From: Gallionellaceae bacterium
GTDB taxonomy: Bacteria; Pseudomonadota; Gammaproteobacteria; Burkholderiales; Gallionellaceae
DNA length: 64,000 bases
Reading direction: 5' to 3'
NCBI GenBank assembly: GCA_006218055.1
Contig: VBWD01000002.1
Coordinates: forward strand, 62,001-126,000
The translations under genes and the position numbers were made by a program. Position 1 is the first letter of the stretch. Every line of letters starts with the position of its first letter. Shown here one piece after another: positions 18,570-26,342 of this stretch. Below the pieces are notes generated by a model that ran no database searches, had not been told where the DNA came from, and was given only the letters and a program-made list of their open reading frames with translations.

Positions 18570-20087
18570 TTACTGCTGCCACAACGGTGGCTCCTCCATC
18601 AGTGCGATCTGCTCTCGCAATTCCAGGATGCGGTTCTGCCAATATATCTGTGTGTTGAACCACGGGAAGGCTTGCTTGAAGGCGATGTCGTCCCAGCGTC
18701 GTGCGAGCCAGGCGGAGTAGTGGATGAGGCGCAAGGTGCGTAGCGCTTCGATGAGATGCAGTTCGCGCGCATCGAACTCGCAGAAGTCTTCGTAACCTGC
18801 CAGCACATCGCCCATCTGCCGCACGCGATCTTCACGTTCACCGGAGAGCAACATCCACAAGTCTTGCACCGCAGGTCCCATGCGGCTGTCGTCGAAGTCC
18901 ACGAAGTGTGGGCCTTCATCTGTCCACAACACGTTGCCCGCGTGGCAATCGCCATGCAGACGCAGTTGCTTCACGTCACCCGCTCTATCGAAGCAATGGC
19001 GCACGCCATCCAATGCTTGTTGCACAACGCTGCGATAGGCTGCGTCGATGTCAGCTGGAATGAAATTGTTCGCCAGCAAGAAATCACGCGGCTCGATACC
19101 GAAGGTGTCGATGTTCAAAGTGGGGCGATGCTGAAAATCCTTGGTCGCACCGACAGCGTGGATGCGCCCGAGGAAACGGCCTAGCCATTCCAGCGTGTCG
19201 CGGTTTTCCAACTCAGGCGCGCGTCCACCATATTTGGCGAACACAGAGAAACGAAATCCATCGAAGTGGTGCAGTGTCGTTCCAGCTATCGTCGAAGCTG
19301 GAACGACGGGAATCTCACGCTCGACCAACTCCTTCACGAAAGCATGTTCTTCGAGGATGGCCGCATCGCTCCAACGTGCAGGGCGATAGAACTTGGCGAC
19401 CAACGGCTTATCGTCTTCGACACCTACCTGATACACGCGATTCTCGTAACTGTTGAGGGCAAGCAGACGTCCATCGCAGCGCAAGCCGATGCTCTCCAGC
19501 GCGTTGAGCACGCAGTCGGGGGTGAGGTCGGCGTAGTTTTCTGCGAGACCGAGAGCATCCCACCCGTCATATCCCAACTTACGCATCGTCTCGATGTTCT
19601 TTTCGAATATCTGCTCTGCTTCTGGAAAGACAGCAACTGCTTCGTCGATACTTTCTTCACGCAAGATATGCAAAGTCGGATACGGCGAACGGTTGGTGAA
19701 GTTGGTGATGTCGTCCAATTCGGTCTCGGCGAATTGATATTGCGGATGCATGCTGGCAACTTGTAACTCACCTGCGAGATCGACTTCTTCCAATGCCTCA
19801 TCAACGACTTCGAGGAAGTCGTTGTAGTCGAGGAAATCAGTCAGCACCTGCGGATGGATGAGCAGGATGGTGTCGATCTTGTCGCGGCTTGCCTCGGCCA
19901 ACACTTCGAACTCCTTCATCACATAGATCAAGAGTTCTTCAGGTGTTTGTGCGGCGCTCACCACGTAACGGATCTGCCCTTTGACGTGCACGCCCTTGGC
20001 GAAAGGACACAGGTTAAGACCGATGACCGCTTTCTCCAGCCACAGCTTAGTGGCTGAGATGGCTTCTTCGTTAGTGACAGTAGCCAT
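18570..20087 (-). CDS. DUF1415 domain fused to SrkA/YihE-type stress-response kinase
   Basis: Residues ~1-178 DUF1415-like (GLNLCPFAKGVHVKGQIRYVVS); then YADLTPDCVLNALESIGLRCDGRLLALNSYENRVYQVGVED...LHGDCHAGNVLW...VDFDDSRMGP kinase. Confidence 0.88.
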   Translation of the reverse strand: MATVTNEEAISATKLWLEKAVIGLNLCPFAKGVHVKGQIRYVVSAAQTPEELLIYVMKEFEVLAEASRDKIDTILLIHPQVLTDFLDYNDFLEVVDEALEEVDLAGELQVASMHPQYQFAETELDDITNFTNRSPYPTLHILREESIDEAVAVFPEAEQIFEKNIETMRKLGYDGWDALGLAENYADLTPDCVLNALESIGLRCDGRLLALNSYENRVYQVGVEDDKPLVAKFYRPARWSDAAILEEHAFVKELVEREIPVVPASTIAGTTLHHFDGFRFSVFAKYGGRAPELENRDTLEWLGRFLGRIHAVGATKDFQHRPTLNIDTFGIEPRDFLLANNFIPADIDAAYRSVVQQALDGVRHCFDRAGDVKQLRLHGDCHAGNVLWTDEGPHFVDFDDSRMGPAVQDLWMLLSGEREDRVRQMGDVLAGYEDFCEFDARELHLIEALRTLRLIHYSAWLARRWDDIAFKQAFPWFNTQIYWQNRILELREQIALMEEPPLWQQ

Positions 20088-21406
20088 TAACGACCACGCC
20101 CACCGGAACGATGCTGCGCACCGGATGGCACTGGGCCACGACCTGCACCTGCTGGCTTAGGCGCACCTGCTGGTTTGCCGCCACCTGTGCGTGGCGCACC
20201 GCCAGTACGACCTGCACCACCGGCACGCGGAGCGGATTGACTACGGCCTTGGCCCTGTCCACGTCCGCCGCCACCTTGACCACGATTAGAACCATTCAAG
20301 ATCGGCTCGGCTTTGATGCGTGGATCAACATCGAACCCGGGCACGTTCACCACGGGGATGTCGCGCTTGATCAAACGCTCAATGTCGTTCAACAGTTTCT
20401 TTTCGTCGACACACACGAGAGAGCTGGCTTCGCCGGAGCTACCTGCGCGTCCAGTACGACCGATGCGGTGCACATAATCTTCCGCCACGTTGGGCAGCTC
20501 GTAGTTCACCACGTGCGGCAATTCGCTGATGTCGATTCCGCGCGCGGCGATGTCGGTCGCCACCAACACTTGCAACTTGGCGGTCTTAAATTCGGCCAGC
20601 GCACGGGTACGCGCCGCTTGGCTTTTGTTGCCGTGGATCGCCATCGCTGGGATGCGAGTGAACACCAGCACTTGGAACCAGTTGTTTTCAGTGATGAGGT
20701 GAGTCAGCAAGTCACGCTTACGCTCACGATCGACTGGATACACGCGCTGCTCGATGAGCTCCGCTGTCTGGTTGCGACGTGCCACTTCGATAAGTGCCGG
20801 ATTCGTCAACAGACCATCCGCCAGCAACTTGATCTCGTCCGAGAAGGTTGCCGAGAACAGCAGGTTCTGACGCTTCTTGGGCAACACCGCGATGACACGC
20901 TTGATGTCACGGATGAAGCCCATGTCCAGCATACGATCAGCTTCGTCCAACACGAGGATCTCAACGTGAGACAGATCGACCGTCTTCTGTTGCAGGTGAT
21001 CGAGCAAACGACCCGGTGTCGCCACTAGGATGTCCACGCGGCCATGCAGTTGTTTGATCTGCGGATTGATGTTCACGCCGCCGAACATCATCATGGACTT
21101 GAGCGGCAGATGTTTGCCGTACATGCGTACGCTCTCTTCGACTTGAGCAGCGAGTTCACGTGTGGGTGTCAACACCAATGCGCGGATGTGGCCTTTACCG
21201 ATGATTTGCTTATCGGCGAGGCGTTGCAACAAAGGCAGTGTGAAGCCAGCGGTCTTACCCGTGCCAGTCTGCGCGCCGCCCATAAGGTCGCCGCCTTTCA
21301 GAATGACGGGAATAGCCTGTGCTTGGATAGGTGTGGGTTCGGTGTAACCGCGCTCGGTAACGGCGCGAACGATTTCTGCGGACAAGCCGAGAGATGCAAA
21401 TGACAT
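20087..21406 (-). CDS. DEAD-box RNA helicase, RhlE-like
   Basis: [40 protein letters not shown]; Gly/Arg-rich C-terminal tail. Confidence 0.95.
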
Positions 21407-21572
21407 ATATAAAACTTTCTTGAAATACAAACGGCCTGTCGCTTCGTTGAAGCGCCAGTCTGAGGCTGAATGAGGTGGGAACTACGTACCGGAAACGGCG
21501 GCAATCACTAGACTGAAACGAGATTGCGGCGCGCATCTTAACAGAACGCGCCGCAACGACCTTATTTAATCG

Positions 21573-23452: not shown

Positions 23453-24109
23453 TTACTTCTTAGCAGGTGCGGCTGGTGCAGCAGCAACAGCGGAAGCAGC
23501 AGAAGCATCCGCAGCGGCGGCAGCTTCAGCAGCGGCTTCAACGTGACCGCGCGGCACTTGAACAGTCGCCACAGCATCCGCAGCGTGGTGATGTGTTGCC
23601 ACTTCAACGCCCTTAGGCAACTTGATGTCAGACACGTGGACGGAGTGAGCGATATCCAGAGTAGCCAAGTCGACTTCGATCGCTGCTGGCAGATCCGCTG
23701 CCAAGCAGACGATCTCCAGTTCGTTCAACACGTGAGTCACGATACCACCGCTGGTCTTCACACCTGGACATACATCTGCGTTCAGGAAGTGCAATGGCAC
23801 CTTCATGTGGATCTTCTTCTTCGCGTCGACGCGTTGGAAGTCGATGTGTTGAACTTGCTGACGGAACGGGTGCATCTGGAAGTCACGCAACAGAACGGAT
23901 TCCTTCTTGCCATCCAAATCCAAAGACAGGACGGAAGCGTGGAACGCTTCTTTCTTTAGTGCGAAATAAAGTGTGTTGTGATCGAGTTCGATCATGGTTG
24001 CGTCGCCTGTACCGTAAACGATACCTGGGACCATGTCCGCCTTACGCAGACGGCGGCTCGCACCCGTTCCTTGCGCCTTGCGTGTTTTTGCGCTGATTTC
24101 AATTGCCAT
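23453..24109 (-). CDS. rplY: 50S ribosomal protein L25/general stress protein Ctc
   Basis: [20 protein letters not shown]5/CTC C-terminal domain; Ala-rich tail; between pth and prs. Confidence 0.93.
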
Positions 24110-24191: not shown

Positions 24192-25139
24192 TTAATCGAC
24201 GAACAGAGAGCTGACCGACTCTTCTGCGTTGATACGGCGCAATGTCTCAGCCATCAACTCAGCGATACTCAATTGGCGAATGCGTTTGCAATTACGCGCC
24301 GCTTCGCTCAACGGGATGGTGTCGGTGACGACCAGCTCGTCGATCGCCGATTTCTCAAGACGCTCGATGGCTGGGCCGGACAATACGCCGTGGGTACAGT
24401 AAGCAACGACGCGCTCTGCGCCTTTTTCTTTCAATGCGTTCGCCGCCTCGCACAGCGTGTTGGCGGTATCCACCATGTCGTCCATGATCAAGCAGGTACG
24501 GCCAGCGACATCACCGATGATGTTCATCACCTTGGCGACGTTAGGCTTGGGACGACGCTTGTCGATGATGGCCAAATCGGCATCCAGTTGTTTTGCCAAA
24601 GCACGCGCACGCACCACACCGCCCACGTCAGGCGATACGACGATGAGGTTGGGGTAATTGTGACGCCACACATCCGACAACAGGATGGGGCTGGCATACA
24701 CGTTATCCACTGGGATATCGAAGAAACCTTGAATCTGGTCGGAGTGCAAGTCCATGGTCAGCACGCGATCGACGCCGACGCCGGTCAACATGTTGGCAAC
24801 GACCTTTGCAGTGATGGCCACGCGAGCGGAACGTGGACGACGGTCTTGACGGGCATAACCGAAATAAGGGATGGCGGCAGTGATGCGGGCAGCCGAGGCG
24901 CGGCGCAGTGCATCGACCATGACCATGATCTCCATCAGATGATCATTGGTCGGCGCGCAGGTTGATTGCAGGATGAACACGTCTTTGCCGCGCACGTGCT
25001 CCATGATCTCGACCATCACTTCGCCGTCGGAGAAGCGACTTACGGTGGCACGACCGAGGTGGATGCCGAGGTGACGAGCAACGCTTTCCGCTAGTTTGGG
25101 ATTGGCATTACCGGTGAAGACCATCATGTCGCCGGACAT
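24192..25139 (-). CDS. prs: Ribose-phosphate pyrophosphokinase
   Basis: [60 protein letters not shown]. Confidence 0.97.
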
Positions 25140-25199
25140 CGAACACCTCGCAAAATAAAATGGGCGCGAACGCCCATCACACACCGATTGAGAAACTGG

Positions 25200-25301
25200 C
25201 TGGGGAGGTAGGGATCGAACCTACGAATGTCGGAATCAAAATCCGATGCCTTACGAATGTCGGAATCAAAATCCGATGCCTTACCACTTGGCGACTCCCC
25301 A
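25200..25301 (-). tRNA. tRNA-Gln(TTG) with exact 30-nt internal tandem duplication (102 nt instead of 72); encoded CCA at 25197..25199
   Basis: Minus strand: TGGGGAG...GCCAAGTGGTAAGGC-A-TCGGA-TTTTGAT-TCCGA-CATTC-GTAAGGC-A-TCGGA-TTTTGAT-TCCGA-CATTC-GTAGG-TTCGATC-CCTAC-CTCCCCA-G-CCA. Removing one copy gives a canonical cloverleaf. Confidence 0.9.
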
Positions 25302-25457: not shown

Positions 25458-26342
25458 TTATGCAGCAAAACTTCTCAGCGGATGTTGTTGCAGACCCTTC
25501 GCGATGAAACCGCGCATATCGTCCGGCAACTGCTGCAATACCGCTTGTGCTTCTGCTTCCGTAGCGAACTCTGCGAACACACATGCACCGGAGCCGGTCA
25601 TGAGTGCGGGAGCGAACTGAGCTAGCCACTCCAGATGTTCCTTGACTGCGGGGTAAAGACCACACGCTACTGCCTGCAGATCGTTCCCTAGCCTCAAACC
25701 ACCCTCGTTACGCCCTACTCGAAAAGTTTGCCCTTTCGGAAGGGCGCGCATTGTCATCGAAATCGTATTTCGTGTCAATTCTGGGTGAGTGAATATTTGA
25801 GCCGTAGGCACATGCACGGGGGGGCAAAGCACCACGTACCACGCATCGGGCAATAGATAGGCCTGTAACTGCTCTCCCACCCCTTCGGCAAAGGCGTTCT
25901 CGCCAAAAACGAACACCGGCACATCCGCCCCCAGACTCAAGCCCAGTTGCATCAAGCGTTCGCGGGATAAATCCAGCACCCACAGGCGATTCAGCGCCAA
26001 CAAGGTGGTCGCCGCATCCGAACTCCCCCCGCCCAAGCCGCCCCCCATCGGGATACGCTTCTCCAACTCGATATCCACGCCTTGTTTACAGCCAGTCTCC
26101 TGCTGCAACAGGCGCGCTGCCCTCACACAAAGGTCTTGCTCTGGGGGCACGCCTTCCAGCGCGTTCACACGGCGCACTTCACCATCCTCACGCACCGTGA
26201 AATGAAGGGTGTCGTTCAGGTCGATGAAGCGGAACAGAGTCTGCAACAGATGATAGCCATCGGCACGGCGTCCGGTGACATGCAGAAAGAGGTTTAGCTT
26301 AGCGGGTGCGGGACAACTCAGAGACTTCACTGCGCTTCCCAT
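25458..26342 (-). CDS. ispE: 4-diphosphocytidyl-2-C-methyl-D-erythritol kinase
   Basis: [49 protein letters not shown]. Confidence 0.96.

Follow-up and report, generated by a model that had tools for sequence, protein, structure and literature searches.

A tandemly doubled anticodon arm in a tRNA-Gln gene of a Gallionellaceae draft genome, very probably an assembly artefact

The tRNA-Gln gene in the window

The analysed stretch of 64,000 nt (hereafter the window) lies on contig C29 of the draft genome G000 and carries a single tRNA gene, tRNA-Gln(UUG), on the minus strand between prs and ispE (Table 1). The body of the gene runs from 25301 to 25200, and the encoded CCA extends on to 25197. 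The prs/ispE neighbourhood had been proposed in the initial annotation of this DNA, and the ORF translations together with the conserved flanks bear it out, the two names being read from the ORF sequences with no family search behind them.

The gene contains a 30-nt unit, CGAATGTCGGAATCAAAATCCGATGCCTTA, in two adjoining copies that exact pattern matching located nowhere else in the window (chance expectation 0). Tandem Repeats Finder likewise reported a repeat at 25222-25284, with a period of 30 and a 100% match. The unit doubles the anticodon arm, is bounded by 3-nt TAC direct repeats and gives an identity stretch of 33 nt. The initial annotation had described exactly such tandem units with a period match reaching 33 nt, which both searches reproduced, and its assignment of the 3' side of the D stem, the anticodon arm and the variable loop to the unit also holds. 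In addition, the cloverleaf elements are in place, with a seven-nt UUG anticodon loop and intact acceptor, D and T arms and CCA. The Rfam tRNA model recognized the gene by handling the extra unit as a 30-nt insert before the T arm, and ARAGORN called no tRNA in the window, the gene as assembled not being accepted.

With runs of at least 16 nt and periods of 10-399, the tRNA-Gln unit was the sole exact tandem repeat in the window, and a further ~80 kb of the contig (L150, L151, L152 and L154) gave none under the same settings. The repeat is thus the single one of its kind on ~144 kb of contig C29, and generally unstable sequence was rejected as the cause, since no second exact tandem repeat was present there.

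Two other features of the window were recorded. The ORF at 23453-24109, which resembles ribosomal protein L25/Ctc, has an alanine-rich C-terminal tail that contains an imperfect GCA-type triplet repeat (23478-23533). Furthermore, the DEAD-box helicase ORF at 20087-21430 (minus strand) lacks 48 nt (16 codons, in frame) at ~20653-20657, in the conserved core after VLVFTR; these 48 nt are present in the relatives G025 and G027 and, judging by match lengths, also in G029. Their absence may be another false join, besides the one listed in Table 1, or a real deletion.

Table 1. Features at the tRNA-Gln locus (window coordinates)
Feature	Position	Strand	Evidence
tRNA-Gln(UUG) as assembled, 105 nt with encoded CCA (normal 75)	25197..25301	minus	Rfam tRNA model, 55.4 bits; 75-nt orthologs at 19 same-genus loci
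30-nt unit, 3' copy in RNA sense (3' side of D arm, anticodon arm, variable loop)	25224..25253	minus	Exact pattern match; Tandem Repeats Finder period 30
30-nt unit, 5' copy in RNA sense	25254..25283	minus	Exact pattern match; normal gene represented by both its 5' 50 nt and its 3' 58 nt
Presumed false join, boundary between unit copies	25253/25254, ambiguous by 3 nt	minus	50-nt and 58-nt pieces
prs (ribose-phosphate pyrophosphokinase) ORF, normal 3' neighbour of tRNA-Gln	24192..25184	minus	ORF translation, name from sequence; flank conserved in relatives
ispE ORF, normal 5' neighbour of tRNA-Gln	25458..26342	minus	ORF translation, name from sequence; flank conserved in relatives

The locus in related genomes

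We then compared the same locus in close relatives, as the initial annotation had advised. All 19 same-genus loci (L002-L020) carry a tRNA-Gln(UUG) between prs and ispE, sharing these neighbours with the window gene, but they measure 75 nt with CCA and have one anticodon arm, whereas the window gene has 105 nt and two. When one unit is removed, the window gene is exactly this 75-nt (72 + CCA) tRNA-Gln(UUG), as foreseen in the initial annotation, which had derived a canonical 72-nt tRNA in this way; the shortened sequence is identical in 18 of the loci, and the remaining one (L012) departs in the anticodon stem.

The initial annotation had also stated that Betaproteobacteria often have one tRNA-Gln(UUG) gene near prs/ispE. 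Indeed, a DNA search of 61 genomes returned one locus in G000 and one in each matching same-genus genome, two listed pieces in a same-genus genome that adjoin or overlap being counted as one locus, and a pattern search of three single-contig relatives found no tRNA-Gln(CUG) isoacceptor. CUG-pattern matches in the drafts G025 and G027 were rejected as tRNA-Tyr variable arms, and one in G029 is an isolated sequence that we judged by eye to be a chance match. The intact second tRNA-Gln that the initial annotation had asked for was not found in this assembly by the DNA search. A real duplication could have left a pseudogene here while an intact tRNA-Gln lay in the missing part of the genome, about 29% by the completeness estimate, and the loss of ARAGORN recognition would fit such a fate. 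However, the single tRNA-Gln locus of the same-genus relatives sits at this very place, and the general breakage of tRNA genes described below accounts for the case without a second copy, so that we give a pseudogene next to no chance.

A search for enlarged tRNA-Gln genes showed G000 as the sole case among 34 genomes of the genus, the other 33 having none, and again among 400 genomes of the order, G000 included; the conservation to be expected of a functional five-armed tRNA is accordingly absent from both the genus and the sampled order. A pattern scan of genome contigs gave no doubled tRNA-Gln anticodon arm among the matches listed, which were checked by eye, and viral contigs contained neither a doubled Gln anticodon arm by pattern scan nor the exact junction sequence. 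Two plasmid records covering most of the query were set aside, as they do so within 76 and 74 nt and are single-unit tRNAs. Beyond the genus and the sampled order, absence of a doubled tRNA-Gln is not proven. Literature searches of the collection covered returned nothing relevant on doubled anticodon arms and nothing specific on tRNA misassembly in metagenomes.

Recent slippage between the TAC repeats might have created a working five-armed tRNA, in which one anticodon arm would decode and the other would behave like a long variable arm. Such a molecule would agree with the exactness of the duplication and the 3-nt direct repeats at its flanks, with acceptor, D and T arms and a CCA that are all undamaged, and with the lack of a second tRNA-Gln in the assembly; the two-arm structure folds at -32.9 kcal/mol, near the minimum of -34.0 kcal/mol, a folding result that is silent on function. 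However, in the minimum-energy fold itself the two arms are base-paired to one another, which would leave both anticodons buried, no relative in the genus or the sampled order has the duplication, and fifteen other tRNA loci are damaged or cut in the same assembly. We regard this outcome of slippage as highly improbable. It is just as hard to credit that the duplication is real and that the cell's sole tRNA-Gln gene would make a tRNA of 105 nt which, despite its two identical anticodon arms, can still be charged and take part in decoding.

tRNA genes across the assembly

G000 is a draft of 1.66 Mb in 100 contigs and is 71% complete, and from its size, contig count and completeness it is presumably metagenome-derived. 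A lenient tRNA-family search gave 21 matches in it, many of them weak or partial, in comparison with 41 in the complete same-genus genome G029, every one of them above the family cut-off, and few weak ones in the drafts G025 and G027. Among 22 tRNA loci inspected in G000, ten have abnormal internal joins (tRNA-Gln among them), two sit on either side of an 85-N gap and four are truncated where a contig ends, leaving only six intact (Gly-GCC, Cys, Val-CAC, Pro-GGG, Ser-UGA and Leu-GAG). In total, 16 of the 22 are broken, gapped or at contig ends, whereas those of the relatives are nearly all intact; at the orthologous loci in G025 or G027, the tRNAs are whole and the flanks correspond to those of G000.

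The 3' parts are gone after the T-loop motif in Arg-CCU, Met, Leu-UAA and Thr-CGU, and the 5' parts are gone in Gly-CCC, Val-GAC, Trp, Leu-CAA and Asp, the Asp break being read from its own sequence with no ortholog compared. The 85-N run lies between Ala-GGC and Glu (L175), and contig ends cut Lys-UUU, His, Lys-CUU and Arg-ACG. ARAGORN also named Met and Arg-CCU, yet their 3' ends differ from those of the orthologs. Contig C29 yielded two tRNA genes, Arg-CCU and Gln, and neither is whole.

In tRNA-Met(CAU) (G000:C90:24740; L161:541-), the T-loop motif gives way to ~80 nt of sequence that is unrelated, and the 3' end is altered; the G027 gene is intact. A tuf (EF-Tu)-like gene, named from its sequence, is missing its end and passes directly into the middle of tRNA-Trp (G000:C13:1126, L174).

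The surviving part of the broken tRNAs measures 54-64 nt in most cases, with a median of 59. When breakpoints were placed at random, at least 7 of 14 fell inside one 4-nt window in 31 of 200,000 draws and at least 8 in 2; both thresholds are given because the observed number is 8 with Thr and 7 without it, the Thr length of 61 nt having been read by eye from the alignment where a strict script gave 49 (there are substitutions in and after the anticodon stem). The near-constant depth is as expected from a de Bruijn graph in which a contig ends within a shared stretch; it also falls roughly at the conserved D- and T-loop motifs, and the two causes are inseparable here. In tRNA-Gln, the 5' 50 nt of the normal gene are followed by its 3' 58 nt, the junction being ambiguous by 3 nt, and the sum exceeds 75 nt by the duplicated segment; the 3' piece has the typical depth, and the 5' piece falls a little below it.

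The tRNA genes of this organism might truly be decaying or serving as insertion targets, with tRNA-Gln as one instance, in keeping with the broken look of many G000 tRNA genes and the foreign sequence after the T-loop motif of tRNA-Met. However, the cell would then be deprived of essential tRNAs, Met and Trp among them, some of the breaks are N gaps or contig ends and represent assembly states rather than biology, the Trp join also deletes the end of tuf, and the surviving lengths are nearly constant. Genuine decay therefore seems to us scarcely believable.

Origin of the duplication and its meaning

The duplication is very probably an assembly artefact, in which two contig ends overlapping in the gene were joined unmerged, and a real duplication of any kind is most unlikely. 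As ~144 kb of the contig contain no second exact tandem repeat and both tRNA genes found on it are damaged, an assembly cause specific to tRNA genes is much likelier than coincidence. Of the four options raised in the initial annotation, an assembly artefact is thus favoured, tRNA-Gln being one of 16 damaged or cut tRNA loci, while a five-armed tRNA, processing of one unit and a second intact copy found no support.

The breakage of tRNA genes throughout the genome and the fit of tRNA-Gln to it are shown by the comparisons above, and for the assembler we infer the following behaviour. Since tRNA genes are nearly identical among related species, a short-read metagenome assembler would stall in them, and contigs would end part-way inside. 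The contig from the ispE side would reach ~50 nt into tRNA-Gln and that from the prs side ~58 nt from the opposite end, so that the segment lying between D loop and T arm would be common to both. Scaffolding or gap-filling may then have set the contigs end to end with the overlap unmerged, writing the segment twice, and the true gene would be a normal 75-nt tRNA-Gln(UUG).

Some observations count against the artefact. A clean duplication is seen in tRNA-Gln alone, the remaining broken tRNAs having lost sequence, acquired foreign sequence (Met) or been interrupted by a gap; 3-nt TAC repeats bound the unit, as real slippage can show; the surviving 5' piece of 50 nt is below the typical length; and conservation is not evidently lower among the intact tRNAs than among those that are broken, the intact Pro-GGG and Leu-GAG being identical to those of G027.

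In short-read assemblies, including those of metagenomes, overlapping contig ends at repeats get misjoined or left unmerged. G000 resembles such cases in its breaks, gaps and false joins within short sequences common to co-occurring genomes and in the doubled overlap, whereas the precise joining step is here one that we infer. Prokaryotic tRNA gene fragments derived from mobile-element integration or CRISPR spacers have also been mis-scored as genes (PMC9897764). Like the present tRNA-Gln, these are non-canonical tRNA-like sequences that on inspection are no extra working genes, but they stem from mobile elements or CRISPR spacers, whereas the tRNA-Gln case most likely stems from assembly.

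As biology, the doubled tRNA-Gln arm probably has no significance. It is a caution that draft metagenome-derived genomes can have tRNA genes broken or duplicated as a class, and joins such as tRNA-Met with foreign sequence or tuf fused into tRNA-Trp would mimic introns, insertions and gene fusions. An odd tRNA gene in such a draft therefore needs to be checked against the other tRNAs of the same assembly before a mechanism is proposed.
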